From Streptomyces clavuligerus (GTDB lineage: Bacteria > Actinomycetota > Actinomycetes > Streptomycetales > Streptomycetaceae), in contig NZ_CP027859.1 of NCBI RefSeq assembly GCF_005519465.1, positions 806,001 to 870,000 of the forward strand: a stretch of 64,000 nucleotides of DNA, in the 5' to 3' direction. Made by a program: the position numbers and the translations under genes. Below, piece after piece: positions 30,716 to 53,820 of the stretch. A model generated the notes under the pieces. It was not told the DNA's origin and made no database searches. It was given only the letters and a program-made list of their open reading frames with translations. The number at the start of each line of letters is the position of its first letter. Within the stretch, counting starts at the first letter, position 1.

Positions 30716-30956
30716 GGTACCTCCCGCAGAGACTCGTCGCGAGCCTGGCTATCCGAACGACGTTAATACTCCGCTGCCCCCCGCGACAGAGCACGGGGCA
30801 GTGCTCCGACAGTGCTCGGTGCCGCACGAGAGCGGCACTGCCGCCACCGCTTCCCGGATCAGGCCGACGAACGCCACGGTGGGACCACAGCCGGAAGCCG
30901 CTGTCGACGTCAAAGCCCGCCCGCCGAGCCGCACCACCCCAGGGAGAGCCACGTCC

Positions 30957-31436
30957 ATGCCCGCAGGACTGCGTGTCGTCGTCGGTTCTGACCGTGCCGG
31001 TGCCGCTTACTGCACCGTCCTGGTCGACCATCTGCATGATCAGCCTCGCGTCCAGCAGATCATCACCACTGGAACCGGCGAAGGCGACGTCCGGCCCTAT
31101 CCGGAGATCGCCTTGGCCGCTGCTCAACTGATCGGCGTCGGGCTCGCGGACCGTGCCTTGCTGGTCTGCCATACCGGCGTCGGCATGGCGATCGCCGCCA
31201 ATAAGGTCACCGGAATCCGCGCCGCCACTGCCCACGATCCGCTCAGCGTGGAACACGCCGTCACCCACAACAACGCCCAGGTGCTGTGCCTGGGAGCCGG
31301 TGTCATCGGTCTGGCCCTGGCACAGCAGCTCACCAAGTCGTGGCTGAACCACTCCTTCGACCCCGCTTCCCGCGCCGCCGCCAGGATCGCTCTGATCACC
31401 GATGCCGAGCACCGTCGCCGGTCCGCGCTGTACTGA
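30957..31436 (+). CDS. RpiB/LacA-type sugar-phosphate isomerase
   Basis: A 159-residue protein. The family motif is present as CHTGVGMAIAANKVTGIRAATAHDPLSVEHAVTHNNAQVLCLGAGVIG (in short pieces: CHTGVGMA with the active-site Cys, and HDPLSVEHAVTHNNA). The usual N-terminal DHAG reads DRAG here. Canonical RpiB interconverts ribose and ribulose 5-phosphates; LacA-type members act on other sugar phosphates. Its place at the head of an operon with an aminotransferase, a radical SAM enzyme and a nucleoside phosphorylase suggests a specialised copy feeding a modified pentose. The GAGAG before ATG 30957 is a modest ribosome binding site. Confidence 0.85.
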   Translation: MPAGLRVVVGSDRAGAAYCTVLVDHLHDQPRVQQIITTGTGEGDVRPYPEIALAAAQLIGVGLADRALLVCHTGVGMAIAANKVTGIRAATAHDPLSVEHAVTHNNAQVLCLGAGVIGLALAQQLTKSWLNHSFDPASRAAARIALITDAEHRRRSALY

Positions 31437-31478
31437 CGGTCTCTTTCCCAGCACCCTTCGCGACTCAGGAGAACATTC

Positions 31479-32684
31479 GTGCCCACAGACCCCACCACCG
31501 TTCCCCGCTGCAAGGCGCCACGGCGCTGGCCCGACGAACCCGCCCAGGGCGGCTGGTACACCGACGCCGAAGACGCCGCGATGCGCGAGGTGATGGACGA
31601 CTCGCTCTCCTGGCGAACCGGCTGGCGCGGCACCGAGCGAATCACCTCCTTCGAGGACGCGTTCGCGGCGAAAGCGGACAGCCGTTATGCGATCGCCTTC
31701 AACGGCGGCGGACCCGCCCTGGAGATGGTCCTGCACTGTCTCGGCCTCCAGCCCGGCGACGAGGTGATCTCCTGCGGGCTGAATTTCGTCGGCACTCATC
31801 TGCCCGTCCTCCACCAGGGCGGCACCCTTGTCCTGGCGGAGCCCGACCCGCTCACTCTGAACCTGGACCCCGTCGACGTCGAGCCCCGGTTCACCACCCG
31901 TACCCGAGCAATCCTGGTCACGCACTGGAACGGCCTGGTCGCAGACCTGCGGCCTTTCCTCCGGCTCGCCGCCTGCCATCCTCATCCGCGTCACGGCCCG
32001 CCGGTGGTGATCGTGGATGCGGCCCGGGCCTGCGGCGGCACCACGCCGGCGGGGCACCCCGTCGGCGCCGAGGGCTGGGCAACCGTCTTCAGCTTCGAGA
32101 CGAAGAAACTGATGACCACGCATGGTCAGGGCGGCATGGTCACCACACAGGACGACGCGCTCGCCTCACAGCTCCGTCGACTGCGCACCTATGGACTAAG
32201 CCGCCACTGGGGCACCAATCAGCAGCTCAACAAGGCCCAAGCCGCTGTCGGGGCGGTCCAGCTCAGCCGTTTGGACGAGATGAACGCCGCCCGCGTCGCA
32301 CGTGGTCACCAACGCACCCGCCTCCTGGAAGACGTCCCGTATCTGACACTTCCGCCGACCCTGACCGGCGGGCAGCACCTGTATTACCGCCACAACCTGC
32401 TCGTCCCCGAATCCTGGGCCGGTGCCGGACGCGACGCACTCATGGAGACCCTCGCCGAACGCTACGGGCTCGGCAGCATCATCAACGACCCGCCCACCTA
32501 CACCAGCCACGACTACATCCATGCCCGCACCCACGGCCAAGCGTGCCCCCGTGCCGAACAGCTCGCCGCCCGGCTGCTCTGCCCCTGCCTGCACCCACTG
32601 ATCAGCGACGCCGAAGAGCAGGAGATCTGCGACGCGATCCGAGAGGCCGCCGAGCAGGTCGCCCGGGCCTTCGGCACTGTCTGA
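31479..32684 (+). CDS. DegT/DnrJ/EryC1/StrS-family aminotransferase
   Basis: A 401-residue PLP enzyme from GTG 31479, nine bases after CAGGAGAA. Fold-type I motifs are AFNGGGPALEMVLHCLGLQPGDEVISCGLNF, VVIVDAARACGG (with the cofactor-binding Asp), and SFETKKLMTTHGQGGMVTT with the Schiff-base Lys. The family installs amino groups on keto-sugars attached to nucleotides, or on cyclitols. It lies 42 bases after the rpiB-like gene and 72 before the radical SAM gene. A role in making an aminosugar or amino-modified nucleoside is inferred. Confidence 0.88.
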   Translation: MPTDPTTVPRCKAPRRWPDEPAQGGWYTDAEDAAMREVMDDSLSWRTGWRGTERITSFEDAFAAKADSRYAIAFNGGGPALEMVLHCLGLQPGDEVISCGLNFVGTHLPVLHQGGTLVLAEPDPLTLNLDPVDVEPRFTTRTRAILVTHWNGLVADLRPFLRLAACHPHPRHGPPVVIVDAARACGGTTPAGHPVGAEGWATVFSFETKKLMTTHGQGGMVTTQDDALASQLRRLRTYGLSRHWGTNQQLNKAQAAVGAVQLSRLDEMNAARVARGHQRTRLLEDVPYLTLPPTLTGGQHLYYRHNLLVPESWAGAGRDALMETLAERYGLGSIINDPPTYTSHDYIHARTHGQACPRAEQLAARLLCPCLHPLISDAEEQEICDAIREAAEQVARAFGTV

Positions 32685-32756
32685 CCCAGCAGCGCCGCTG
32701 TCTGTCCCCTCCATGGATCTCCGCCCGTTCCTCCGCTGACGAAGGAAGCCGACACC

Positions 32757-34562
32757 ATGTCCCAGCTCGACCTGGAAGCCGCTGCCATCCAGTCCCGTGA
32801 AACCGTGCTCGGCACCCCATATCCCACCGAACATCGCGAGAACGACCTGCGGATGGTCTTCCTCTTTCCCTACGGCCACGGCTACTCGTTGATGTGCAAC
32901 GGCCCCATGGCCTTGTACGACCTCATCAACCGCGACCAGAGTCTGCCCGCGTACGCCGAGCGGGCATTCCAGTATGATTGCCTCATCCGGGACGGCAACC
33001 GGCTCATCACACCCAACGATGAGATCTACCGGAGCGTCGAGTCCCCCGCTCCGGTCCACGAGGCCGACATCGTCGGGGTGTCCGTGACCAACGCCGGCGA
33101 CATGCACTCGGTGTTCCGGCTCCTGGACCTCGCCGTAATTCCGCGCCGTACCACCGACCGTGTCCCCGGCAGGCATCCCGTGGTCGTCGGCGGCCAAGGT
33201 GGCCTGGCCAACCCTGAAGTACTGGCCGATTACCTCGATGTGGTCGTCCTCGGCGAGGCCGAGAGGTCCCTGCCCCGGCTCATTCGCACCGTACACGCCC
33301 ACCAGTGCTCCCCTGACCCTGGTATCTCGCTGTACGAGCTGCTCGCCAAGATCCCCGGTCTGTACGTACCGTCCCTGTACGAGTGCGACCTGGTCGCCGG
33401 AGGCGGAGTCAGCGCGGTACGGCCCAAGGCCGTCACCGTACCGGCCGCTGTGCGCGCACAGTGGCTCGCACTGGACGATCTCCACAACGCCCACTTCGTG
33501 TATCCGATCACGGACGGTACCGCCGCTGGAATGATTCCACTCCTCGGCTGCCGCCACGCGTGCTTCTTCTGTACCCTGCGCACCCCACCCTTCCGTCAGG
33601 CGCCACTTGAGGTGCTGCTTCGTTACATCGACCGCGTCGAAGAACTCGGCGTGCCGCTCATCATCATCAGCGCCCCTACGTTCACCCAGTATCGGCACCG
33701 CACACGGCTCCTTGAGCGAATCCGTGCCTACCGGGACCGCGCCAGGGCCCGAGGCATCAGGGTGAGCGTCATCATCGGCTCGGTCCGAGCGGACGAGATG
33801 ACCTCCGACTATCTGCGGGATGTCAACGAACTCGGCGACTTCGGGCATCTGTTCACAGAGCTGAGCCTGACTCAGGCCCGCGGCATCGTCACCATCGCGC
33901 CCGAATTCGCCGATGCCGAACTGGTCTCTCTGTACGGCAAGACCATGCCGCCCGAGCGCGTCGACCGCGCCATCGACCAGTGCAGGGAAGCCTCCGACGT
34001 CATCGACACCGTCATGCTGTATTTCATCATCGGGGCCCCCGGCGAACGCCGGGAGGACCGTCTCGCCATAGCCGACAGGGCCCGCGATATCCACGCCCGC
34101 CTCGACCGGCCCGATGCCTCGGTCATCATCAAACTGCATCAGTTCATGCCGGAGCCGGGTACCCTCACTCAGCGGCTGCCCATGACCGACCCCGGCCTCA
34201 TCGACGGGTACGTGGAGGAGATCACCGACCGGCTTCGCCGACTCGTCGGCGAGGAGACCTTCGCCGAGCACTATCGCGTCCTGTACGGAGAGGCCAACCG
34301 CCTCCACCTTGAAGCAGTCTGCTTACGCGGAGACCGGCGAGTCGGCCACGCCTTGGAAGACCTCTACAAGAGTGGTGCCGACCTCACTCGCCTGGATCGC
34401 AGCGATCTGCTGAGCTCGTTGAACGCCCACGGCCTTGATTTTGAACGACATCTACGGCTCATCGACGACCCGGTCCTGCCCTGGCACACCGTCAACGAGG
34501 TCGACACTGTGCAGGAGCAACGCGTGACGGCCGCGATCGGGAAACGGATGTCCGACCGATGA
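32757..34562 (+). CDS. B12-binding-domain-like radical SAM enzyme
   Basis: A 601-residue protein. Residues about 75-180 (VHEADIVGVSVTNAGDMHSVFRLLDLAVIPRR ... VVVGGQGGLANPEVLADYLDVVVLGEAE) resemble the Rossmann-like N-terminal domain of cobalamin-type radical SAM enzymes, but I see no DxHxxG cobalamin ligand motif. The cluster-binding loop is LGCRHACFFCTL (CxxxCxxC) at about residue 263-274. The barrel continues through VSVIIGSVRAD and TIAPEFADAELV to GAPGERREDRLAIADRARDI. It could methylate, rearrange or cleave a C-H bond. Its stop overlaps the nucleoside phosphorylase start by ATGA. No characterised homologue is recognised. Confidence 0.82.
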   Translation: MSQLDLEAAAIQSRETVLGTPYPTEHRENDLRMVFLFPYGHGYSLMCNGPMALYDLINRDQSLPAYAERAFQYDCLIRDGNRLITPNDEIYRSVESPAPVHEADIVGVSVTNAGDMHSVFRLLDLAVIPRRTTDRVPGRHPVVVGGQGGLANPEVLADYLDVVVLGEAERSLPRLIRTVHAHQCSPDPGISLYELLAKIPGLYVPSLYECDLVAGGGVSAVRPKAVTVPAAVRAQWLALDDLHNAHFVYPITDGTAAGMIPLLGCRHACFFCTLRTPPFRQAPLEVLLRYIDRVEELGVPLIIISAPTFTQYRHRTRLLERIRAYRDRARARGIRVSVIIGSVRADEMTSDYLRDVNELGDFGHLFTELSLTQARGIVTIAPEFADAELVSLYGKTMPPERVDRAIDQCREASDVIDTVMLYFIIGAPGERREDRLAIADRARDIHARLDRPDASVIIKLHQFMPEPGTLTQRLPMTDPGLIDGYVEEITDRLRRLVGEETFAEHYRVLYGEANRLHLEAVCLRGDRRVGHALEDLYKSGADLTRLDRSDLLSSLNAHGLDFERHLRLIDDPVLPWHTVNEVDTVQEQRVTAAIGKRMSDR

Positions 34563-35419
34563 CCTGCCCGGTACCCGGTATGCCGCTGCCTGCCGACAAA
34601 CATCGGCTCCCGGCACTGACCGACCCCGCCGAGCACGCCGCCCACATCCGCACCCGCCGCCCCGATGCCGACCTCGCCCATACCGCAGGCGTCGTCCTGC
34701 TCTACCAGTCCTCTTTGATCGAAGAAGTAACGCTCCGTATCGGCACTCACCCAGTGGACCGCTGGGTATCCGCCGACCTCCACCTGAGCCACGACAATGT
34801 CGTACTCTGCTCCGGCTTCGGACGCGGCGCCCCAGCCGCGGGCCTCATCATCGAGCAGCTCATCGCCTTCGGCGCCCGCGCAGTCATCACCATCGGTACC
34901 GCCGCCACCCTGGCTGAGGGCCTGCACCCAGGAGATCTGGTGATATGCCGTGACGCCCTGCGGGGAGAGGGCCTCTCCCACCACTACCTGGCCCCCGGTC
35001 GCTACATCACCCCTGACACCCATTTGACCGGTCTTCTGGCTGCCGAAATCGACGGGAACGGCGCCAGAGTGCGCCAGGAGCGCGTCTGGACCACTGATGC
35101 TCTGTACCGGGAAACCGCGACCGAAGTACAACAGTTCACCGCCGAGGGCGCGATGGCTGCCGACATGGAAGCCGCCGGAGTACTCGCCGTCGCCCACTTC
35201 CGGCACATCCCGGCCGCAGCCGCCTTCGCGATCGCGGACTCACTCGTCTGCCGCACACCGCGCCACGACTCGCCCAAGACCCACAAGGGCCTCGTCACAC
35301 TCTTTGACGCCGCTGTCCGCACTCTCACTCGCCGCCTCCCGTCACCGGCGGGAGCCGACAGCAGGAGTCCTCGCGCCCGCGGGCTCAGCCCTGGGACTCC
35401 GCCGGAGCAGCCGGGGTAG
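34559..35419 (+). CDS. Nucleoside phosphorylase (PNP/UDP family)
   Basis: A 286-residue protein translationally coupled to the radical SAM gene. The phosphorylase fold shows in NVVLCSGFGRGAPAAGLIIEQLIAFGARAVITIGTAATL, the phosphate- and ribose-binding stretch, and in GAMAADMEAAGVLAVAHFRHIPAAAAFAIADSL, where Met-Glu binds the ribose and the Asp contacts the base. Family members split a nucleoside with phosphate into base and pentose 1-phosphate. In this operon it may supply or recover ribose phosphate, process a modified nucleoside, or clear 5'-deoxyadenosine from the radical SAM reaction. Its 3' end overlaps the convergent small membrane gene by 35 bases. Confidence 0.84.
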   Translation: MTCPVPGMPLPADKHRLPALTDPAEHAAHIRTRRPDADLAHTAGVVLLYQSSLIEEVTLRIGTHPVDRWVSADLHLSHDNVVLCSGFGRGAPAAGLIIEQLIAFGARAVITIGTAATLAEGLHPGDLVICRDALRGEGLSHHYLAPGRYITPDTHLTGLLAAEIDGNGARVRQERVWTTDALYRETATEVQQFTAEGAMAADMEAAGVLAVAHFRHIPAAAAFAIADSLVCRTPRHDSPKTHKGLVTLFDAAVRTLTRRLPSPAGADSRSPRARGLSPGTPPEQPG

Positions 35420-37971: not shown

Positions 37972-39381
37972 TCAGGAACGGACGGGGAGCCCGGACAGCA
38001 CCTCGCCGAACGCGGCGACGATCTCGGTCGTCTCCCGGTCCGACAGCACGAGCGGCGGGGCCACGGTCAGCGCGCGCGGCCCGCCGCGTACCAGGACGCC
38101 CGTACGGTCCCGGATCTGGTCGGCGATGGCGTAGGTGCCCTCGGGCAGCGGGTCCCGGGAGCCGGGGGCGCGGACGATCTCGACGGCGGCGGTCAGTCCG
38201 TACTGGCGGGTCCCGCCGACGAGGGGGATGTCGTGCAGTGAGCGCAGCTCCTCCCCCAGCCGGGCCCCGGCCCGTTCGGCGGCGTCCAGCAGCCCTTCCC
38301 GTTCGATGATGTCCAGATTGGCGAGCGCCACCGCGCAGCCCACGGGGTGGCCGCTGTAGGTGTGGCCGACGGGGAACCCGCCGTCGCCGCCGAGGGTCCG
38401 CGCGATGTCCTCGCTGGTCACAACGGCGCCGAGCGGGAAGTATCCGGAGGTGAGCCCCTTGGACAGAACGGTCAGATCGGGCCGTACGCCGATCCGGTCC
38501 GCCGCGTACCAGTGGCCCACGCGGCCGAACGCGGTGACGACCTCGTCCAGGATGAGCAGGATGCCGTGGCGCCGCAGGACCTGTTCGACGCGCGGCCAGT
38601 AGTCGGGCGGCGGGGCGACCATACCGCCGAGGGCCAGGACGGGTTCGCCGATCAGGGCGGCGATCCGGTGGGCGCCGATCCGGTCGATCGCCGACTCCAG
38701 CTCGTGGACGAGCAGATCGGTGGCCTTCTCGGGGGCCTCCCCGGCGGCGAAGGGGTAGGGCGCGGAGAGCCGGTGGACCTGGCCGGGGTGGGGGCCGAAG
38801 CCGGTCGTGTACGGCGGGAAGTCGGACAGCTCGCCGCTCGCGTACCCCGCCCCGTGGTAGGCGCTGTCCCGGGTGAGGATCCAGGTGCGGTCGGGTTCGC
38901 CGCGCCGGTGGTGGACGTTGCGGGCCATCCGGAGCGCGATCTCCACGCCCTCCGAGCCGCCGCTGGTGAAGAAGACCCGGCGGGTGTCGTCGGAGCCGAT
39001 TCCGACCAGGCGTTCGGCGAGTTCGACCGCCCGGTCGTGGGTGTAGTCCCAGAAGACGGTGGAGTACTCCAGGGTGCGCATCTGTCCGGCCGCCGCCTCG
39101 GCGATCTCCCGGCGGCCGTGGCCAACCTGGCAGAGCCACATGCCCGCCGTCGCGTCGAGGTATTCGCGGCCCTCGGCGTCCCGCAGTCGGCAGCCCTCGC
39201 CCTCCACCATGACGATGCGGCTGTGCTGTTCGCCGGGGAGGAAGGGGTGGAGCAGCCGGGCGCGGTCCCGGTCGGCCAGGGCGCGGGCGTCGGGCCGGGC
39301 GCGGACGCCGGCCTCGGCGCTGGTACCGGCCTCGGCGCGGGGGTCATGAGGGCCGTCGACGGCGTCAGGTCTGGTCGTCAT
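37972..39381 (-). CDS. Class III (omega) aminotransferase
   Basis: A 469-residue PLP enzyme from ATG 39381, overlapping the end of the PNPOx-like gene by 17 bases. Motifs are [38 protein letters not shown] (phosphate-binding), [16 protein letters not shown] (cofactor Asp) and [16 protein letters not shown] with the Schiff-base Lys. The family transfers amino groups to or from terminal amines and omega-amino acids. The pattern is close to the beta-alanine/pyruvate and DAPA-type group. In this cluster it may act on a peptide-derived or amino-acid-derived aldehyde or ketone. Confidence 0.9.
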
Positions 39382-39964
39382 GGAGTGTCCTCGGATCGGG
39401 GCCGCCCTCAAAGGAGGCGGCATCGGCGGAAGCCCAGTCGGCGGGAACGGCTTCCGTACGGACAGCGCCGTCCTCGTACGGACCGGACGCGGCGGAGGGG
39501 CGGAAGGAGAGATCGGCGGTCCACAGCCGGTCGGGAACGAGCCGGGCCCAGCGGTTCTCCCCCGCGGCGGGGCCGTCGAGCCGGAACCTCGGGTCCCACC
39601 GGCTCTCGTCCGGGCCGAGATACCGGCTCAGCTTGCGGCGCGCACGCGGTGCGTCGATACCGGTCACCGCTCCCGTGCCGCGGGCGATCACCTGGCGGAC
39701 CCGGCCGTCGGCCGCTTCGCACTCGTCGACGACCAGCGTGAACGCGGGATCCGCCGCGAGCTGCCGGGACAGGGACGACCAGCTCCCGGTGATGACCCAG
39801 AAGGTCTCGTCCTCCCACAGGTACCAGACCGGGCGGACGGAGAGCGGACGGGTGGCGAGCCGGGCGACCAGCGGCCGGGCGAGGAAGGCCGCGACGTCGA
39901 ACGGGAGTCGGCCCTCGGGGCGGAGCAGGCCGTCCGGTCCGCGCCGGGAGACGGTGCCGGGCAT
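39365..39964 (-). CDS. Pyridoxamine 5'-phosphate oxidase-like (FMN-binding split barrel) protein
   Basis: A 199-residue protein whose ATG is one base after the TAG of the upstream aminotransferase gene. The fold shows in [42 protein letters not shown], the flavin- or F420-binding split barrel, and [22 protein letters not shown]. It lacks the full PdxH substrate signature, so it is better regarded as a family relative that may use FMN, F420 or heme. Sandwiched between two PLP aminotransferases, it could oxidise an amine or reduce an intermediate of the pathway. A longer frame to 40003 overlaps the upstream gene and was not chosen. Confidence 0.8.
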
Positions 39965-39965
39965 C

Positions 39966-41285
39966 CTAGGCACCTCCGGAGGGCGCCGCCGCACGCTTCG
40001 CACCGGCCGTGCGCACGGCGCGGGCCAGCCGGGCGCACCCCTCGGCCAGTTCGCCGGGGTCCGCCGTCGCGTAGGACAGGCGCAGGGTCGCCCGCTCCGG
40101 CTCCCGGGCGTAGAAGGCGGCGCCCGGGACGAAGGCCACCCCCTCCCCGAGGGCCGTGGGCAGCAGTTCCGTGGTGTCCAGGCCGCGGGTCAGCCGGGCC
40201 CAGACGAAGAATCCGCCGTCGGGTACGGCGAAGGCGATCTCGTCACCGAGGTGTTCGCGGAGCGCGGCGACCAGGGTGTCCCTGCGTTCACGGTAGAGCC
40301 CCCGCAGCCGGGCCACTTGGTGGTCCAGCAGTCCGGGGGTGGTGAGCAGGGCATGCGCCAACTGCTGGGTCAGCGCCGAATTGCCCAGGTCGGCGGCTTC
40401 CTTGAGTCTGCTCAACGGGGTGCGCAGCGGCTCGGGGGCCACCAGGTAGCCGATGCGGACGGCGGGGCTGAGCACCTTCGAGAGGCTGCCGAGGGTGATC
40501 ACCCGCTCCGATCCGCGATCCGATCCACGGTCCGTGACGGCATCGGCGGACGAGGTGCGGAAGCCGAGCTGCCGGTAGGGATCGTCCTCGACCACCACGC
40601 AGTCGTACCGTTCCGCCAGCCGGGCGAGCCCGGCGCGCTGTCCGGCGCTGAGGCTGTCCCCGGTGGGGTTGGCGTAGGAGGGGACGACATAGACCATCCG
40701 CACCGGCCGTACGGAGGACTCCCGTGCGAGCGCCCGGTCGAGCGCGGTCAGCTCCGGGTCGGACGCGATGGGAACGTCCCGCACCCGCGCCTGGTGCAGG
40801 GTGAGGAGCTGGAGCGCGCCGCTGTAGCTGGGCCGGTCCACGAGGACGGTGTCACCGGGGTCGAGCAGGGCCCGGCACACCAGGTCGAGGCCCTGCTGGG
40901 AGCCGTGGGTGACCACGATCCGGCGGGGGTGGACCGCCCTGCCCGTGCGGCGGGAGACATCGGCGGCGAACCACTCCCGCAGCGCGGGCAGTCCGCCGGT
41001 GTCGGTGTACTGGAGGGCCCCGGGCCGGGTCAGGACCCGGTCGATCAGCGAGCGGACCTCGTCGACCGGCAGGGCCGTTGCGGCGGGGCTGCCCGCGGCG
41101 AGCGAGATCGCGCGGTCACGGGCCGCTCCGCGCAGGGCCTCGGCGATCACGGAGGGCGGCAGGGCGGCGCAGTGGCGGGACAGCCGTGCCCCGGCGGGCC
41201 GGGGCCCCGGTGTGCTGCCCCCTCGGTCGGGGGTCGTTGTCCTGGCGTCCTCGGGGATCGTCGTCATGGCGTCGTCACCGTTCAC
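39966..41285 (-). CDS. Class I/II PLP-dependent aminotransferase (MocR-type domain without HTH)
   Basis: A 439-residue enzyme. GTG 41285 overlaps the stop of the LLM gene (GTGA); ATG 41267 six codons in is an alternative start. Motifs are GALQYTDTGGLPALREWFA, VVTHGSQQGLDLVCRALLDPGDTVLVDRPSY, VPSYANPTGDSLS, CVVVEDDPYRQLGF and SLSKVLSPAVRIGYL with the cofactor Lys. It resembles 2-aminoadipate/aromatic aminotransferases. There is no winged-helix domain, so it is an enzyme, not a MocR regulator. It belongs to the tightly overlapping leftward operon. Confidence 0.9.
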   Translation of the reverse strand: MNGDDAMTTIPEDARTTTPDRGGSTPGPRPAGARLSRHCAALPPSVIAEALRGAARDRAISLAAGSPAATALPVDEVRSLIDRVLTRPGALQYTDTGGLPALREWFAADVSRRTGRAVHPRRIVVTHGSQQGLDLVCRALLDPGDTVLVDRPSYSGALQLLTLHQARVRDVPIASDPELTALDRALARESSVRPVRMVYVVPSYANPTGDSLSAGQRAGLARLAERYDCVVVEDDPYRQLGFRTSSADAVTDRGSDRGSERVITLGSLSKVLSPAVRIGYLVAPEPLRTPLSRLKEAADLGNSALTQQLAHALLTTPGLLDHQVARLRGLYRERRDTLVAALREHLGDEIAFAVPDGGFFVWARLTRGLDTTELLPTALGEGVAFVPGAAFYAREPERATLRLSYATADPGELAEGCARLARAVRTAGAKRAAAPSGGA

Positions 41286-42343
41286 ACATCCGCGAGCGCG
41301 GGCAGCACATCGCGTCCCAGCAGGCCCACGGTGCGCATGGCCGCGCGCTGCGCGATGTCCCCGAACCGCACGTGGAGGCTGACCTCGGCGCCGGGGTACC
41401 GCTCGGCGACGAGCCGCAGGGCGTCGCGGGCGTCGGCGGGCGAGCCGACGACGACATGACCCGCGTCGAGCAGATCCGTGAAGGAGGTGGCCCGTACGGC
41501 GGCCTCCATCTTCTCGTACCCCGGGTACTGGTCGGAGCGGACCCCGCGCCAGGAGGCGTACGCGGCGAGCTGCTTGCTCCGGTAGTCGTCGAAGTGCCGT
41601 TCGGCCTCGTGCAGCGCCTCGGAGCGCTCGGGGGCGAGATAGGCGTGGTAGCTGACGTGGAGCCGGCCGGGGCCGGGGTGGCCATGGGCGGCGCGGGCTT
41701 CGTGGTACAGCTTCAGCAGTTCCTGGAGCCGCTGGTGGGAGGCGACGATGGGGATGACCATGAGGTGGTAGCCGCGTTCACCGGCCCAGACGAACGAGTC
41801 CTCGGAGACGGTCGCGGCGACATAGACCGGGGGGCAGGGGAGCTGGGCCGGGCGGGGCAGCAGCGGGGGCAGCGGTCCGAAGCGGTGGAACGTCCCGTCC
41901 CAGCGGAAGTCGCTGTCGGTCCACAGCCGTACGACGGCGTCGACGCCTTCGCGCATCCGCTCCTTGCTCTGGTCCATCGGCACCTCGAAGGCGTCGAACT
42001 CGGTCGGGAGGAAGGCCCGTCCGAAACCGGCGTCGAGCCGTCCGCCGGAGAGGTTGTCGAGCAGGGCGAGCGAGGCGGCCAGCTTGACCGGGTGGCTGAA
42101 CGCCGGGACACAGGCGCCGGTCACCAGCCGTACCCGGGTGGTGCGGGCGGCGACGGCGGAGAGGAGGGCGATGGGGTCGGGGCTGTAGCCGCCCCAGGGG
42201 TGGAAGTAGTGCTCCACGGCCTTGACGTGGGAGAACCCCAGCCGGTCGGCCGCGCCGCACAGATGGAGACAGTCCGCGTAGTACTCGGCCGCCGGGACCT
42301 CGTCCGGGCCGAGGGTGGGGAGGAAGTTGAGCCCGATCCTCAT
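41282..42343 (-). CDS. LLM-class flavin-dependent monooxygenase
   Basis: A 353-residue luciferase-like protein whose ATG overlaps the aldolase stop by four bases. Family segments are FSHVKAVEHYFHPWGGYSPDPIALLSAVAART, RVRLVTGACVPAFSHPVKLAASLALLDNLSGGRLDAGFGRAFLP and the C-terminal VVGSPADARDALRLVAERYPGAEVSLHVRFG. This pattern is of the FMN-dependent, luciferase-like branch rather than the F420-reductase branch. Enzymes of this type oxidise aldehydes, amines or peptidyl residues. It is translationally linked both to the class II aldolase and to the aminotransferase, implying one pathway. Confidence 0.88.
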   Translation of the reverse strand: MRIGLNFLPTLGPDEVPAAEYYADCLHLCGAADRLGFSHVKAVEHYFHPWGGYSPDPIALLSAVAARTTRVRLVTGACVPAFSHPVKLAASLALLDNLSGGRLDAGFGRAFLPTEFDAFEVPMDQSKERMREGVDAVVRLWTDSDFRWDGTFHRFGPLPPLLPRPAQLPCPPVYVAATVSEDSFVWAGERGYHLMVIPIVASHQRLQELLKLYHEARAAHGHPGPGRLHVSYHAYLAPERSEALHEAERHFDDYRSKQLAAYASWRGVRSDQYPGYEKMEAAVRATSFTDLLDAGHVVVGSPADARDALRLVAERYPGAEVSLHVRFGDIAQRAAMRTVGLLGRDVLPALADV

Positions 42344-43083
42344 GAGCGGACGTCCAGGGAGTGGCAGAGGTTGAGGAACTGCCGGTCGGCATACTCCTGT
42401 TTGCTGAGCATCGCGCCGGTCTCGCGGGCGATGGCGTCGGGGATGCGGTGCGGGGTGCCGACGGACTCGGCGAGGAGCTGTACGTCGGCGGCGCGTTCCA
42501 TGGCGACATGGAGCCAGGCGGCCTCGCCGATGGACCGGCCGCCGGTGACCCAGCCATGGCTCTGGAGGATGACCGCCGAGCCGTCGCCCAGGGTCTGCGC
42601 GATCTCCTTGCCCTCGTCCCGGTCGGTCACGGGTCCGCCGAAGCGGGGGTAGACGCTGTGCCGTCCGAAGAGCAGACAGGCGTCCTGGGTGATCGGGTCG
42701 AGCGGGCGGCCGAGGGTGGACCACGCCTTGCCGAGCCGGGAGTGGGTGTGCGCGAAGGCGGTGAGGTCGGGCCGTGCGCGGTGGAGTTCGCCGTGCAGCG
42801 CGTCCACGGAGGGGTTGAGGGTGCCGTGCCCCTCGGCGACCCGGCCCACGGGGTCGATCAGCAGCAGGTCCTCGGCGCGGACCCGGGTGAAGTCGACCCC
42901 GAGGGGGTTGACCCAGTAGTGGTCGGGGCTCGTGGGGTCGACGGCGCTGAAGTAGCCCGCCAGGCCGTGTCCGTAGCCCAGCGCGCCGAACAGCCGGATC
43001 GCGGAGACGAGCCGTTCCTTGACGAGCTGCGTCTCGACGCGTTGTGTCTCGACGCGCGGGGCGGGGGGCGTGGCGGTGCTCAT
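42340..43083 (-). CDS. Class II aldolase/adducin family protein
   Basis: A 247-residue protein with the zinc-site pattern of the family: FGALGYGHGLAGYFSAVDP, AHTHSRLGKAWST with the His-x-His pair, and LQSHGWVTGGRSIGEAAWLHVAMERA with a third His. Enzymes of this class split or join hydroxy-keto compounds, for example fuculose 1-phosphate, or decarboxylate. The N-terminus has a short RVETQ repeat. GGAGG lies 13 bases before the ATG. Its stop is fused to the LLM start (ATGA). It lies 229 bases downstream of the FGE-like gene. Confidence 0.88.
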   Translation of the reverse strand: MSTATPPAPRVETQRVETQLVKERLVSAIRLFGALGYGHGLAGYFSAVDPTSPDHYWVNPLGVDFTRVRAEDLLLIDPVGRVAEGHGTLNPSVDALHGELHRARPDLTAFAHTHSRLGKAWSTLGRPLDPITQDACLLFGRHSVYPRFGGPVTDRDEGKEIAQTLGDGSAVILQSHGWVTGGRSIGEAAWLHVAMERAADVQLLAESVGTPHRIPDAIARETGAMLSKQEYADRQFLNLCHSLDVRS

Positions 43084-43312: not shown

Positions 43313-44671
43313 TCAGGCGTCCGGCGGCGCCGCGTCGTAGACGCAGCGGAATCCCACCTCGTTGTGCCGGTCGGTCAGCAGGTCCTTGCCCCGGTAGTAG
43401 GTGGTGAGGCAGACCGGCGGCGAGGTCCAGGTGCCCCCCTTCAGCACATGGAACGCCTCGGGCCGGTTCATGAACTCCACCCCGGTCCTCCCCTTGAAGA
43501 AAGGCGCCATGTCCTGGCGGGTGAAGAAGTTGGTCCGGGTGATCTCCCAGACGTTCCCCGCCATGTTGAGCGCCCCGTACGGGCTCGCTCCCCGGGGGTG
43601 GGCGTCGGCGGGCACCACGGGCTCCGGCGGCCAGACAAGCGAGGTCCGCACGAGCAGCGCCTCCAGCTCGTCCAGGTCGCGAGGGTTCTCGCCCGGGTAG
43701 GCGCTCTCGACGCTGCGGGCCAGCTCCGTGTCCCAGGTGTCGCCCCAGGGGTAGCGGCGGCCGTCCGTGCCGCGCGCGGCCTTCTCCCACTCGTCCTCGG
43801 AGGGCAGCCTTCCGCCCGCCCAGCGCGCGAAGGCGTAGGTGTCGTACCAGTCGACGCCGACCACGGGGAACGAGGGGTCGTCGAAACGGGGGTCGCGCCA
43901 GTGGGCCGGGGTGTGGTCCTTGCCGTCGGGCTGGTCGGGGTGGGCCCAGCGCTCGGCGCCGCCGCTCCGGACGGCATCGAGGAAGCGCCCGTACCGCTCG
44001 TTGGTCACGGCCGTGCGGTCGATGTGGAACGAGGGCAGCTCCACGACTCTGAGCGGGTTGTCGGCGTCGTCCATCTGGAACGGGCCCACCTCGTCGATGC
44101 GCGCTCCGGCGATCGAGGGGCCGCCGGGGACCAGGACGGCGTCGCTGAGGTCGGGCTCCACCCGGGCGGAGGCCACCTGGGCGCGTAACCCGGCGAAGTG
44201 CTCGTCCTCCAGGCGGCGCAGCTCCTCGGGGTCCCGGGAGCCGAAGATGCCCCACAGGGCGCGCTTGGTCAGCGCGGCGCCGCAGCCGACGGGCTTGCGG
44301 GCGTAGGCGGGGCGGCTGAAGTTGCTGGGCCAGCCGGAGATGCGGATCAGATGGGCGGCGGCTTCCGGCAGCCGCAGGGAGTGGACCGCGTTGATGGCCG
44401 TGAAGGCGACCCAGTCGACGTCGTCGTGGGTGGCCGCGCAGATGGCCTGCCGGGCCTCGGGCGAGTCGGCGAAGCGGGCGGCCAGGGCGTCGACGCAGAT
44501 CCGCCGTACGTTCCAGTCGGCGTGGCGGCCGGTTCCCCGGCACAGCTCGGCCTCCAGCTCCGGGGTGGGGGGCTGCCCGGTCACCTCCTTCTCCAGGACG
44601 GACAGGCGGTGCGCGTACGCCTCGTTGTCGAGGGAGGCGAGTGCGGGTGCGTCTGGCAGCTCGTAGTGCAC
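43313..44671 (-). CDS. Formylglycine-generating-enzyme-like (SUMF1/EgtB fold) protein with helical N-terminal domain
   Basis: A 452-residue protein from GTG 44671. Residues 1 to about 190 are helical and HEAT-like (RHADWNVRRICVDALAARF, DVDWVAFTAINAVHSL). The rest is an FGE-sulfatase domain (FHIDRTAVTNERYGRFL, VVGVDWYDTYAFARWAGGRLPSEDEWEKAARG, YPWGDTWD, MAGNVWEITR, GFRCVYD). In true formylglycine-generating enzymes the copper-binding CxxxxC pair follows GGS; here that stretch reads GGTWTSPPVCL, so only the second Cys is left. It is therefore unlikely to make formylglycine. Relatives with the same fold (EgtB, OvoA, PvdO) use iron and other substrates. The 19-residue ORF lies 196 bases upstream. 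Confidence 0.85.
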   Translation of the reverse strand: MHYELPDAPALASLDNEAYAHRLSVLEKEVTGQPPTPELEAELCRGTGRHADWNVRRICVDALAARFADSPEARQAICAATHDDVDWVAFTAINAVHSLRLPEAAAHLIRISGWPSNFSRPAYARKPVGCGAALTKRALWGIFGSRDPEELRRLEDEHFAGLRAQVASARVEPDLSDAVLVPGGPSIAGARIDEVGPFQMDDADNPLRVVELPSFHIDRTAVTNERYGRFLDAVRSGGAERWAHPDQPDGKDHTPAHWRDPRFDDPSFPVVGVDWYDTYAFARWAGGRLPSEDEWEKAARGTDGRRYPWGDTWDTELARSVESAYPGENPRDLDELEALLVRTSLVWPPEPVVPADAHPRGASPYGALNMAGNVWEITRTNFFTRQDMAPFFKGRTGVEFMNRPEAFHVLKGGTWTSPPVCLTTYYRGKDLLTDRHNEVGFRCVYDAAPPDA

Positions 44672-44867
44672 GGTGTGGTCCTGTCTCCTTCTTCTTTCGC
44701 CCTCGTGCGGGCGGCCCCTGCGCAGGGGCCGTGAGTGCGGCCCGGTCTGCGGGGAGGGGCGGTGGGGGCCGCGGGCGCCGATCGGGGGACGGCGCCCGCG
44801 GCCTGCCGGGCCGGGGCTGCGGGCCGAATCGCCCGGGCCCCGGTCCGGTGTCAGCGTGGGCGACGCG

Positions 44868-44927
44868 TCACCACTTGGTGGCAGCCTCGCCGGCCTCGCG
44901 AGAGCCCAGGAAGTCCTCGGCAGTCAT
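44868..44927 (-). CDS. 19-residue ORF, candidate precursor peptide
   Basis: ATG 44927 opens a 19-codon frame (MTAEDFLGSREAGEAATKW) ending at a TGA. An in-frame stop lies three codons upstream, so nothing longer is possible. Its ribosome binding site, AAGGAGGTGATC, is a perfect 12-base complement to the 3' end of 16S rRNA, stronger than any other in the window and well spaced. The acidic N-terminal half followed by a short Ala/Gly/Thr part and a C-terminal Lys-Trp looks like a leader with a very small core. It sits between the TerB-like and FGE-like genes, same strand. It contains no Cys or His. It may be a RiPP precursor or a short leader peptide. Confidence 0.6.
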   Translation of the reverse strand: MTAEDFLGSREAGEAATKW

Positions 44928-44931
44928 GGCG

Positions 44932-44943
44932 GATCACCTCCTT
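44932..44943 (-). promoter_or_regulatory. Full-length Shine-Dalgarno of the 19-residue ORF
   Basis: On the minus strand this reads AAGGAGGTGATC, matching the anti-SD tail of 16S rRNA over twelve bases, with GGAGG nine bases before the ATG. It indicates strong translation of the tiny ORF. Confidence 0.75.
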
Positions 44944-45040
44944 CCGTTGTTGGTGGACGGACAGGGGGCAGGGGGCGTGGTCCCGCTGTACGGGGACCTG
45001 ACCGGACCGGCTCCGGCGGAGCCGTCCGGAACCCGCCGGA

Positions 45041-45541
45041 TCAGAACGGGCGGCTCTCCGCGTCCGGGTAGCAGAGCTCGAAGCGGCGCTTGACCAGCTC
45101 CGCCTCCTGCTGGTGGATCTCGACGAGCTGAGCCACCGCGTCCCGTCCGACGCCCAGCAGGTCGGCCGCGGCCTCGATCTGCTCCAGCTCACCCGGAGCG
45201 AGGACGCCGTCGGCCGCCGAGACGCGGATCGCGTCGTAGAGCAGACAGGCGCCGGACGCCCCCGCTCCCTCGGCCGCCCCGAGAACCTCCTTGAGGTCCC
45301 CGTCGCCCGAGTCGGTCTTCAACTCCTCGACCAGGTCCGCCGGGCCGTGCATACCGGCGATCAGACCGACGGCGTACTCACGCTCCTCGTCGGCCAGGTC
45401 CCCGTCACCCTTGGCGCAGATGAGCAGAGCCTTGCCGTAGGCATTGAAGTCGGCCACCTGGGGCGCGTTCTTGAAGCCCCAGTAGCTCTGGAAGATCCAG
45501 CGAAGACCGATCTCGGCCGCGGTTTCCTGAGCGATCGACAC
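45041..45541 (-). CDS. TerB-like (tellurite resistance family) protein
   Basis: A 166-residue helical protein from GTG 45541, six bases after AGGAGGTGG. Two acidic loops, CAKGDGDLADEEREYAVGLIAG and SAADGVLAPGELEQIEAAADLLG, have the EF-hand-like acid spacing of TerB proteins, which bind metal and scaffold membrane-linked complexes. No other ter gene is near, so tellurite resistance is unlikely. It is the first gene of the leftward run and lies 113 bases upstream of the 19-residue ORF. A stable hairpin lies in its 5' untranslated region. Its role in the cluster is unknown. Confidence 0.75.
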   Translation of the reverse strand: MSIAQETAAEIGLRWIFQSYWGFKNAPQVADFNAYGKALLICAKGDGDLADEEREYAVGLIAGMHGPADLVEELKTDSGDGDLKEVLGAAEGAGASGACLLYDAIRVSAADGVLAPGELEQIEAAADLLGVGRDAVAQLVEIHQQEAELVKRRFELCYPDAESRPF

Positions 45542-45562
45542 GCAAACCACCTCCTGACATCG

Positions 45563-45593
45563 CGCTGGGCCCCCATGCGGTTGGGGCCCAGCG
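45563..45593 (-). promoter_or_regulatory. 11-bp inverted repeat in the 5' region of the TerB-like gene
   Basis: CGCTGGGCCCC and GGGGCCCAGCG form exact arms around a nine-base loop, just upstream of the ribosome binding site and downstream of an AT-rich promoter-like segment (45600-45700). It could be an operator or an attenuating or stabilising hairpin for the whole operon. Confidence 0.5.
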
Positions 45594-45841
45594 ATCACCA
45601 GAAGATACCTTCAGTAGCTATACGTGATCTGACAGTAACGGTTCTTCGTTCAAATGACCCTATTCTTATGCAGAAATGATTACTTCACGCCATCACGTCC
45701 TGAACTGGTTCACCTCGCGGGGATAAAGGGACGATCGGGGGCGCAACGAGCACAATGACCGGTGGACGAGTGGTGGCCGGCCGACAGCCAGCTCGGCGGG
45801 GGCGCGGCCGGAGGGAACGATCCTGGGGCGGGGGCCAAGGG

Positions 45842-50549: not shown

Positions 50550-53500
50550 TCAACGGCCGGTGGTCGCGGCGCCCACGGCGAGCCGGGTCGCGAGCTGGGT
50601 GCGCCGGGTCACCCCCAGCTTGCGGTACGCCTTCGTCAGATGGGACTCGACGGTACGGCGGGCCAGGTGCAGGCTGGCGCAGATCTGGTCGTTGGTCAGG
50701 CCCTGGACGGCCAGTTCCACGATCCGGCGCTCCGCCGAGGTGAGTTCGTCGACCGGCAGGAGGGCGGGAGAGGGGTCGGTGCGGCGGCACGGGCGGCCGG
50801 ACTCGGACGCGCGGAGGGCGGCGTCGACGAGGGCGACGAGGCGCGGGGTGAGCGGCCCGGCGCCCGTCGACAGGACATCGGTCGCGGGGCCGGGCGCGGC
50901 GGGGAGGAGGGTGCGGGCGAGCCCTTGGGCGTCGCGCAGCGTCTCGCGGCCCTTGCGGCGCCGGCCGGAGACGATCTGTGCCCGTCCGAGGTCGGTCAGG
51001 GTCTCGATCAGCTCCGTCGGCGCCGGGGCGGTGCCCAGGACGCGCGCGGCCTCCTCCAGTGTCTCCAGCCGTTCCCGCCCGCCGAGGGTCAGTGCGCGGG
51101 CGCGCAGGGCGGTGCCGATGTGGCGGGGCGTGCCCCAGGCGTGGGCGTAGCGGAGTCCTTCGTCGGCGAGGGCACGGGCCTCGGTGTGCCGGGAGAGGTG
51201 GGCGAGGGCGATGGCGGCGCCCGAGCGCCAGGGCTGGCCCACGGGGTTGACGAAGCCTCGGACCGCGTGCCGTTCGCCGCATCTGCGGTAGGCGGTGAGT
51301 GCCTGCTGCCACTCCCCGCTGTCGAGGTGGATACGGGCCCGGGTGTGGAGGACTTCCTCCCACTCCCAGGAGACGCCGGGCTCGTCGAAGGCGCCGAGCG
51401 CGTCGAGGTGGCGGTGAGCCAGGTCGGTACGGCCCAGTTCGTGCCAGGCGTGCGCGGTCAGGGCGCGGAGATAGGGCAGTCGGACGGCGGGGTCGCGGAC
51501 CCCGTCCAGGAGCGGGGTCAGCCGGTCGACGAGGTGCCGGAACCGGCCGAGTTTCCGTTCCACGGTGGCGTGGACGGTGAACAGGTGCAGATGGGCCTGG
51601 CTGGTGAGGTCCAGGGCCACCGGCAGGGCGGGCAGCGCGGGGAGTTCACGGGCGAGCAGGCCGCGCGCCTCGTCGAGGTGGTCGGCCCATTCGAGGACGG
51701 CGGCGGCCCCGGCGGTGAACGCGGTGCGCAGCCGGGGGTGCACGGGGGCGTGGAGGCGGGCGGTGACGCGCTGGACGGCGGTGTGCGCGTCGATCCTTCC
51801 GGTGCCGCCCTCGTGGATGGTGAGCAGGGCGCAGACGAGGGGTTCGACGGATTCGGGCGCGTGGGGGGCCAGGGTGCGCATCTCGTCGGCGGCGTGGTGC
51901 CAGGTGCGGGCGTCCTGGCTGGCGAGCGCGGCGACGCCGACCCTGACGACGGCGGTGAGCTGTTCGTCGTCGATGGTGCGGCCGGTGTCCTCCAGGACCC
52001 GGATGGCGGTGTCGACGTGTCCCTGCGCGGCGAGTGCTCCGCTCAGGGCCTCGGAGACGGCGCAGGGGTCGTGGCAGTCGGCGCGTTGCAGGCTCTCGTG
52101 GAGTCGGCGGATGCCGCTCCGGGAGGAGTGGAGCATGTCGAGGGCGCTGAGGCGCAGGGTGAGGGAGCAGTGGCGGGCCGGGGCGACAGGTCCGCCGAGG
52201 GCGTGGCGCAGGATACGGGCGGCGTGGTCGGGCGCGCCTGTGCGCAGTGCGTGCTCGGCTGCTTCCTCCAGGGTGTGGACGATCCAGGGGGCGCCGGTCT
52301 GCGGGGTGTCCAGGAGGAGGGGGGCGATGTCGGACGCCGGTCCGCCGTGCCGGTAGAGGGCGTGGGCGACGCGGTGGCGCAGGAAGGGGAGTTCGTGGTG
52401 GTCGGCGGTGGCGAGGACGGCTTCGCGGACGGAGGGCAGGGCGAGCATGGGGGTCAGCTCGGCGAGGTGGCGGCGGGCGGCGGGGAGCCGGTCCGGGGGC
52501 AGGCCGGTGAGGGCGGCGGTGAAGTCGGTGGTGAGGGCGGGTTCCTGGTCTCCGGCGGCCGGGGGGTCGATGGTGCCCGGGGGCAGGAGGGCCAGGGCGA
52601 GGGCGAGGGGGCGGCGCTCCGGTGCCGCCGGGCTCCGCAGCCAGCGGGCGAGGGCCGTGCGGTAGGGTGTGCCGAGGGGGCCGCCGGGCCAGGAGCCGGA
52701 CGGTCGGGGGCGGCGGGCGAGGGCGTCCAGCAGCAGGGGGTTGCCCGCTCCGGCGGCGAGCAGGTCGCGGTCCGCGCCGTCCATGCCCTTCTTGCCGTCC
52801 ATGCCGTCCTTGCCACCCGTGCGGTCTGTGCCACCCGTGCCGTTCGGGCTGGTCGGGCTGGTCGGGCTGGTTCCGGAGCACAGGCGGAACAGATGGGCCG
52901 CGGCCCCGGGGCCGAGCGGGGACAGCGGCAGCGCGGTTCCGGTGTCGCCGCACAGCCGTGCGCCGAGATCGGCGCCGGGGGTGTCGGCGCCGGACGGGCG
53001 TGGGTCCGCGCAGGCGGTGAGCAGCAGGAGTACGGGGAGGTCCGCCAGCCGGTGGGAGAGATGGCCGAGCCAGCGGCGGGAGGGCGGATCGGCCAGGTCG
53101 GCGTCGTCGACGGCGAGCAGCAGGGGGCGCCGGGCCGCGAGCGCGGCGACATGTCCGGTGAGCCGGTGGAACAGGCGTTGTTCCACGGTGGGGCCCGTCT
53201 CGCCGAAGGGCAGCAGGACGCCCTCGGGGAAGAGGCCCCGCAGGAGGGAGAACGCGAAGCCCGCCTCCTGCGGGACGGCGCGGGTGCTCAGGATCTGCAT
53301 CCGGCCAGGGGGTCCGGCGGCTGCCCCGCCAGGTGCCTCGCCCTGCGTCGCCCCGGCGGGTGTCCGGCCGTGTGGCCCGCCGTACGCCGGCCCGTGATTC
53401 CGGTTCCGGTCCCGGCTCTCGTTCCGGTTCCGGTTTTGCGTGGGGGCCGTGCGGGTCGCCGTGGCCGGTGCCGTTCCCCGGCGGTCCGTGGCCGTCTCCC

Positions 53501-53651
53501 GCCGGAGGATCTCCGTGAGGAGCGCCGACCGTCCCGCGCCGACGTCCCCGTACAGCAGCAGCCATCGGCCGCGCCCGGCCAGGGCGGCCGTGGCGGAACG
53601 TTCCCCCTCGTCCAGGGCGCTGTCCCGTCCCGCTCCTAACGGCAAGTGCAT
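50550..53651 (-). CDS. Large LuxR-family (LAL) ATP-binding regulator
   Basis: A 1033-residue protein from ATG 53651, with GGAAGG upstream; more distant ATGs would add sequence rich in rare residues. The N-terminal AAA/STAND domain begins with a P-loop, G35-DVGAGR41-S42, in which Arg replaces the usual Walker A Lys. Walker B is LLLAVDDADLAD. The middle is helical and TPR-like (about 400-950). The C-terminal LuxR helix-turn-helix is LTSAERRIVELAVQGLTNDQICASLHLARRTVESHLTKAYRKLGV. LAL proteins activate specialised-metabolite or sugar-uptake genes in response to unknown ligands. It stands alone and has no obvious cluster partner; divergent from the ArsR gene. Confidence 0.88.
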   Translation of the reverse strand: MHLPLGAGRDSALDEGERSATAALAGRGRWLLLYGDVGAGRSALLTEILRRETATDRRGTAPATATRTAPTQNRNRNESRDRNRNHGPAYGGPHGRTPAGATQGEAPGGAAAGPPGRMQILSTRAVPQEAGFAFSLLRGLFPEGVLLPFGETGPTVEQRLFHRLTGHVAALAARRPLLLAVDDADLADPPSRRWLGHLSHRLADLPVLLLLTACADPRPSGADTPGADLGARLCGDTGTALPLSPLGPGAAAHLFRLCSGTSPTSPTSPNGTGGTDRTGGKDGMDGKKGMDGADRDLLAAGAGNPLLLDALARRPRPSGSWPGGPLGTPYRTALARWLRSPAAPERRPLALALALLPPGTIDPPAAGDQEPALTTDFTAALTGLPPDRLPAARRHLAELTPMLALPSVREAVLATADHHELPFLRHRVAHALYRHGGPASDIAPLLLDTPQTGAPWIVHTLEEAAEHALRTGAPDHAARILRHALGGPVAPARHCSLTLRLSALDMLHSSRSGIRRLHESLQRADCHDPCAVSEALSGALAAQGHVDTAIRVLEDTGRTIDDEQLTAVVRVGVAALASQDARTWHHAADEMRTLAPHAPESVEPLVCALLTIHEGGTGRIDAHTAVQRVTARLHAPVHPRLRTAFTAGAAAVLEWADHLDEARGLLARELPALPALPVALDLTSQAHLHLFTVHATVERKLGRFRHLVDRLTPLLDGVRDPAVRLPYLRALTAHAWHELGRTDLAHRHLDALGAFDEPGVSWEWEEVLHTRARIHLDSGEWQQALTAYRRCGERHAVRGFVNPVGQPWRSGAAIALAHLSRHTEARALADEGLRYAHAWGTPRHIGTALRARALTLGGRERLETLEEAARVLGTAPAPTELIETLTDLGRAQIVSGRRRKGRETLRDAQGLARTLLPAAPGPATDVLSTGAGPLTPRLVALVDAALRASESGRPCRRTDPSPALLPVDELTSAERRIVELAVQGLTNDQICASLHLARRTVESHLTKAYRKLGVTRRTQLATRLAVGAATTGR

Positions 53652-53820
53652 GGTGTGCCTTCCATGGGTCCCGTCATCGATATCCTTCGTCCGATATCCG
53701 AACAGCCTCCCGTTGCGGAGCGCCGGATAGAAGGACGGCATCGGAAGCGATCACGTTGCCACCAGGGAGAAAAGAAAGAACGCGGAACTCCTCCTCCCCA
53801 TGGGCTCGTTCGCCAAGAAC

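Follow-up and report, generated by a model that had tools for sequence, protein, structure and literature searches.

A conserved 19-residue Lys-Trp peptide gene beside a HEAT and FGE-fold enzyme gene in Streptomyces clavuligerus: a candidate scaffold-peptide pathway of actinobacteria

In the biosynthesis of PQQ and mycofactocin, the last residues of a short conserved peptide are converted into a small molecule, and the chemistry is done by radical SAM enzymes and PqqD-type domains. In the pearlin or scaffold pathways, such as those for ammosamide and 3-thiaglutamate, an amino acid is rebuilt on the C-terminus of a peptide, released and then tailored; for ammosamide it is Trp that is rebuilt, and Amm20 is named as a putative asparagine synthase (passages of PMC11117183 and PMC12424672; scaffold-peptide pathways are also treated in a passage of PMC9303977). 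The biarylitides, as a passage of PMC13417212 describes them, have a precursor of five residues, residues of which are cross-linked by a P450, and the precursor gene escapes automatic detection.

In this study, we analysed a 64,000-nt stretch of Streptomyces clavuligerus DNA (contig NZ_CP027859.1, positions 806,001 to 870,000; hereafter the window), in which a 19-residue peptide ending in Lys-Trp (KW) is encoded directly upstream of a gene for an FGE-fold enzyme. As far as the passages cited above describe these systems, the working logic of the locus is nearest to that of the ammosamide and 3-thiaglutamate scaffold pathways, and Amm20 has a likeness in the AsnB-like gene present in six relatives of the locus. 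However, Trp is added post-translationally by a tRNA-dependent PEARL in the pearlin pathways, whereas Lys-Trp is encoded here and the constant enzyme is of the FGE fold. No PEARL or lantibiotic-dehydratase-like Pfam domain was found in the ten proteins encoded between 37.9 and 48.9 kb, in the P450 or in ten more proteins of the window; this result and the encoded Lys-Trp indicate that the peptide is not a pearlin. The FGE-fold enzyme also takes the place that radical SAM enzymes and PqqD-type domains have in the PQQ and mycofactocin systems. With the biarylitides, as far as they are described in the passage cited, the locus shares a very short and easily undetected precursor gene, but it is not one of them, the peptide having 19 residues and a KW end and its constant partner being the FGE-fold enzyme, while a P450 is inconstant. 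An earlier note on this DNA had held that so short a precursor with this enzyme set fits no known RiPP class, a statement weakened by the five-residue biarylitide precursors. Among the best matches of full-text searches of the open-access literature there was no description of a pathway pairing an FGE-fold enzyme with a KW peptide, which is no proof of its absence.

The peptide gene lies on the minus strand at 44868..44927, begins with ATG (44927-44925), ends with TGA (44870-44868) and has 19 sense codons for MTAEDFLGSREAGEAATKW, a putative precursor or scaffold peptide; it is a genuine gene, and one that is probably overlooked by annotation. Four bases upstream of the ATG stands the Shine-Dalgarno sequence (SD) AAGGAGGTGATC (44932..44943, minus strand), a complete complement of the 16S tail. 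The SD contains an in-frame TGA, which makes an upstream extension of the frame impossible; the upstream stop and the clean TGA reported in the earlier note are thus both present, the former within the SD itself. The window has a single copy of the 12-mer and 100 shuffles gave none; the 8.54-Mb genome has eight, this site among them. Five of these copies lie at 16S 3' ends, one for each of the five 16S genes in the RF00177 report, demonstrating that AAGGAGGTGATC is a true anti-SD complement and rare; the full complementarity claimed earlier is therefore borne out by the genome's own 16S genes. This perfect 12-nt SD is true of this strain but is not a family trait, since the SDs listed for the relatives are shorter than 12 nt, with weak ones at loci L011 and L075. 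A reading of AAGGAGGTGATC as a stray reversed 16S fragment was dropped, as Rfam gave no match in the window.

The FGE-fold protein was used as query at E <= 1e-40, revealing relatives in 18 out of 392 sampled Streptomyces genomes, the genome of the window included, and in 4 out of 394 genomes of a class sample, one of which was new. With six further contigs carrying a close FGE (from Lentzea xinjiangensis, Rhodococcus rhodnii and four Streptomyces), 25 loci (18 + 1 + 6) were inspected, namely the window and 24 others, with FGE identities from 80% to about 35%. At all 25 loci, a short ORF with an intact frame lay directly 5' of the FGE gene and ended in KW or in KW plus two residues (EA, EG or AA). 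The orthologous ORFs include those of Lentzea and Rhodococcus, and no frameshift was found in any relative, so the two checks that could have overturned the proposal of the earlier note, on conservation and on frame, both came out in its favour. The peptides typically take the forms MTAEDFLGSREAGEAATKW, MSNEEFIGSREAGEVATKW (in Rhodococcus), MSDRDFIETRDAKQECSKW, MSEKDFMGTRDNEQDTTKW and MSDETFLGSRDGGDETTAKWEA, and the distant FGEs (about 35 to 40% identical) pair with MKTLRQWNALRSQRKGGVRPAGKYFKWAA or MSYGSQWEKAVSTRSLKKRLTDADKW. In the main clades, an N-terminal motif of roughly F[LIM]x[ST]R[DE] accompanies the KW at or near the end; Lys-Trp is the sole element common to all 25 peptides, and the distant clades have KW alone in common. 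At L074/L088 the peptide is ambiguous, being either a longer ORF or 19 residues read from an inner GTG with no clear SD. Clusters of a related type are found at L063, L064 and L065, where the peptide has 29 residues and an FKWAA end and two FGE-fold genes stand in tandem.

A scan for SD-led short ORFs ending in KW found exactly one in the window, the peptide ORF itself, and one in total over 20 Markov-1 random 64-kb sequences; the scan was devised after KW had been noticed, and its random expectation is low (mean 0.05 per 64 kb). The same scan over the 24 large loci gave just three extra ORFs that were not near an FGE, and 22 of the 24 passed its stricter filter, L011 and L089, which have poorer SDs, failing. 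Among 44 control loci of other FGE-fold proteins (25-41% identical over the best segment, mostly from other phyla, three from Streptomyces), searched over at most 1,700 nt 5' of the match and over less DNA at a few loci, only one had a KW ORF, a doubtful one with a TTG start and a loose SD test. Without recourse to the FGE, a DNA-level search with a strict pattern covering the peptide's second half gave matches in 6 of the 392 Streptomyces genomes; the control, this pattern reversed, gave none. Five of the six genomes have the FGE and the sixth (G055) has an FGE remnant behind the peptide, so within this 392-genome sample the pattern was never met without an FGE or its remnant. In the sixth genome (locus L095, 1440 to about 1860; G055:C3:5945816), an intact peptide gene precedes a remnant covering only about FGE residues 5-77; L095 is a decayed copy of the cluster.

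Comparison with close relatives demonstrated that the peptide is under purifying selection at the protein level. In L013 (Streptomyces beigongshangae), the closest relative among those fetched, the peptide is identical to that of the window, with eight synonymous and no non-synonymous codon differences (simulated P = 5e-5, 1 of 20,000). L010 and L002 differ by ten synonymous and no non-synonymous codons. In both pairs, all differences fall in the third codon position, indicating that the peptide rather than the RNA of the ORF is kept. The peptide is thus coding, conserved, tied to the FGE family and characterised by its KW end. The proposal of the earlier note that it is a ribosomal precursor with a C-terminal Lys-Trp gains support from the conserved KW ORF and from purifying selection, the modification itself being what we infer.

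The protein encoded at 43313..44671 (minus strand), the candidate modifier of Lys-Trp, has the FGE fold (Pfam FGE-sulfatase, 153 bits) together with HEAT repeats (HEAT_2, 30.5 bits), which Pfam placed at residues 49-111, an N-terminal part that the structural comparison barely covered. Its structure model reached a pLDDT of 94.5 with an 80-sequence alignment; a poor model based on 44 close sequences (pLDDT 70) was discarded. In FGE, two cysteines are copper ligands. At the positions aligned to these in 6muj, Ser417 and Leu422 are found instead, so the protein is not a strict FGE and its chemistry cannot be read from that of FGE. EgtB, OvoA and SenA have an N-terminal DinB domain with a three-His iron site. 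All five NCBIfam models listed for the protein scored far under their cut-offs, including EgtB (79.9 bits, cut-off 360) and SenA (70.3 bits, cut-off 420). Within the fold family of FGE, EgtB, SenA, PvdO, CalU17 and ToxD, the enzyme is set apart by its N-terminal HEAT repeats, its missing copper cysteines and these low scores. In an alignment of 42 sequences of the FGE family, for 12 of which the KW ORF was seen, D430 and H436 are kept, and in a set of 35 FGE-fold proteins from outside the family these residues are not among the commonest at the same positions. The family likewise keeps H50, K126 and H244 constant, but in that set they often have no aligned counterpart. D430 and H436 are missing from the second FGE copies of L063-L065, although these copies share H50 and H244.

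Upstream of the peptide gene, a TerB-like protein is encoded at 45041..45598 (minus strand). The earlier note had placed the ORF between a TerB-like and an FGE-fold gene; the FGE assignment is firm, whereas the TerB match of the window protein is weak (19.7 bits, under the Pfam cut-off of 24.4), although the L010 orthologue passes that cut-off with 31.6 bits. The TerB-like gene was called solely in the window, L010 and L013. Downstream of the FGE gene, also on the minus strand, lie genes for a class II aldolase-fold protein (42340..43083), for which the decarboxylase NovR (9ryg, E 1.7e-45) is the solved chain closest in sequence, with TqaM among the next-nearest; a luciferase-like monooxygenase (41282..42343; Bac_luciferase, chain 7bip), the start of which was placed at the onset of the Bac_luciferase/7bip match, residue 128 of a long ORF; a fold-type I PLP aminotransferase (39966..41285), nearest to a solved 2-aminoadipate aminotransferase and then to kynurenine/2-aminoadipate aminotransferases and MppQ; a PNPOx-like protein (PPOX, 39365..40003), which accompanies the peptide and the FGE more constantly than any other partner; a class III aminotransferase (37972..39423); and a cytochrome P450 (36570..37808). 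A search with the PPOX sequence against solved structures yielded nothing useful (best E 0.61), and comparisons of the luciferase-like protein and the class III aminotransferase fixed no substrate. Elsewhere in the window, a plus-strand row at 30669-35419 (RpiB-like isomerase, DegT aminotransferase, radical SAM protein with a weak B12-binding match, PNP_UDP phosphorylase) looks like a separate small-molecule cluster, a large AAA/LuxR-type regulator with a GerE domain (50550-53741, minus strand) possibly controls a nearby cluster, and a terpene synthase family 2 protein is encoded at 4510-5475 (plus strand).

In the relatives, partner genes were grouped by clustering of gene calls, and only representatives were examined with Pfam or NCBIfam. 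PPOX homologues (at least 145 aligned residues; four queries, three of them drawn from these loci) were found within the fetched DNA at 19 of the 24 large loci, corresponding to 19 of the 20 loci with an FGE identity of about 55% or more. At L062 no PPOX lies in the fetched stretch, where the contig has just 12.5 kb; the distant loci L063, L064, L065 and L089 have none or a 40-residue fragment. At some loci PPOX stands about 8-9 kb off the FGE or on the opposite strand. The smallest set, at L009 and L011, comprises the peptide, FGE, PPOX and a LysE exporter. Elsewhere the set is extended by an MFS transporter together with an ATP-grasp ligase (L061, L083 and L084, the first two also with a methyltransferase and a P450), by NRPS genes (L012, L014, L059, L060, L080 and L081), or by an AsnB-like protein and an ATP-grasp ligase (L062, L082, L085, L086, L087 and L090), several of the last group with a PhyH protein, a GntG-type aldolase and a metallo-beta-lactamase-fold protein as well. 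A second FGE is present at L063-L065, with a PhyH oxygenase in between at L065. At L088 (8702-11614), peptide, FGE and PNPOx are followed by an EgtD-like Methyltransf_33 methyltransferase. That partners are swapped while the peptide-FGE(-PPOX) core stays constant suggests one building block as the product of this core.

Some of these partners bear on what the building block could be. In NRPS A domains, a conserved Asp holds the alpha-amine of the substrate. In four of the five A domains inspected (L012, L059, L060 and L080), Ala replaces the conserved Asp of LgrA, as would be expected if a deaminated acid were loaded, and the fifth (L014) has another motif, not of the Ala type; the change was read from the alignment with LgrA and the motif, and we take the mapped position to be the amine-binding one. 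NovR-type enzymes act on aryl-pyruvate-type acids. The window and several NRPS clusters share the aminotransferase, the NovR-like aldolase-fold protein and the luciferase-like monooxygenase. Judged from the genes, the set of aminotransferase, NovR-like protein and A domains would fit an aromatic amino acid, presumably Trp-derived, which would be loaded in deaminated form, as an acid. For an aromatic residue the EgtD-like methyltransferase is only a loose argument, and the building block may instead be derived from Lys.

An alternative role for the short ORF is regulatory. The 196 nt between the peptide and FGE genes in the window (44672..44867, minus strand) form very stable hairpins (MFE -120.9, z -5.7) and are a candidate read-through attenuator, and the ORF might encode a leader peptide translated only to make the ribosome pause, either on reaching Lys-Trp or at the stop codon, the hairpin then controlling the FGE operon. 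Such a role would agree with the position of KW at the stop or two residues short of it and with the stable hairpins found between the two genes at z <= -2 in 21 of the 24 gaps folded (18 at z <= -2.8; L011, L064 and L080 miss z <= -2), as measured against exact dinucleotide shuffles with gap bounds taken from the FGE alignment. However, a leader peptide is harder to reconcile with the conserved N-terminal half and with 8 to 10 synonymous changes that leave the peptide identical, and the distance from KW to the stop varies (KWEA, KWEG, KWAA). The stems are similar inside clades but differ across them, L088 has no gap between peptide and FGE that could hold a hairpin, and a scan of window positions 44600-45800 gave no T-tract terminator and no sigma-70 promoter consensus. 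A single Trp codon, moreover, is a weak basis for Trp attenuation. We therefore regard a leader peptide as unlikely. The hairpin may let the cell produce peptide in excess over enzyme. At L062, L085, L086, L087 and L090, the hairpins behind the peptide have a clade-wide stem of the CCGCCCGTACGG or CTGCCCGTACGG type.

It is likewise improbable, in our judgement, that the peptide stays unmodified and assists the FGE-fold enzyme as a small subunit or an activator, the true substrate being a free small molecule. The tight linkage to the FGE gene, the near-constant length in the main clades and the charged N-terminal half are compatible with a subunit; HEAT repeats commonly bind peptides, and the relatives EgtB and OvoA use free amino acids as substrates. 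Nevertheless, the best-conserved part is the C-terminal KW, which tolerates two extra residues and so resembles a core rather than an interface, and the FGE fold is known to act on a peptide. That the ORF arose by chance behind an SD-like sequence can be set aside with near certainty: the window has a GC content of 72%, at which spurious ORFs are frequent, but a chance origin is ruled out by the conservation of the ORF, by divergence at synonymous sites only, by the linkage to the FGE gene and by the low random expectation for such ORFs.

Taking these data together, we think it probable, on the basis of the sequence comparisons, that the locus encodes a RiPP-like pathway on a scaffold peptide, with the ORF as its substrate gene and the FGE-fold enzyme as the modifier of Lys-Trp. 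A short gene adjacent to a candidate modifying enzyme, the arrangement usual for RiPPs, was found at 25 of 25 loci, and the two products would stand to each other as substrate and enzyme. In such a pathway, the ribosome would produce the 19-residue peptide, with its N-terminal motif serving as recognition part and the C-terminal Lys-Trp as core. The HEAT and FGE-fold enzyme would bind the peptide and oxidise or cross-link Lys-Trp, Trp being the likelier final carrier of the change, although the modified residue may be Lys. The PNPOx-like protein could act as a flavin-type redox partner in a second redox step, and common peptidases would then free a modified amino acid or dipeptide; among the genes called and proteins scanned, no peptidase gene was constant. 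Cluster-specific steps would follow, namely export (LysE), coupling (ATP-grasp ligase, NRPS) or tailoring, the last carried out in the window by the aminotransferase, the NovR-like aldolase-fold enzyme, the luciferase-like monooxygenase, the class III aminotransferase and the P450. The steps are proposed with falling assurance, from the peptide as FGE substrate through Lys-Trp as site, PPOX as redox partner and release by peptidases to the cluster-wise tailoring.

We lean, by a small degree, towards the wider reading that this is an unreported ribosomal class, in which a HEAT enzyme of the FGE fold rebuilds an encoded Lys-Trp on a scaffold peptide of 19-29 residues and the released unit is shared among clusters, being exported, ligated by an ATP-grasp enzyme or fed to an NRPS depending on the actinobacterial cluster. 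If so, an FGE-fold enzyme would join the RiPP-modifying enzymes, and the pair of precursor and enzyme would be directly testable because a substrate of 19 residues can be synthesised. The finding also suggests that precursor genes of such size are readily missed. The pathway, if true, would suggest a route by which non-standard building blocks of ribosomal peptide origin may reach NRPS and ligase pathways.
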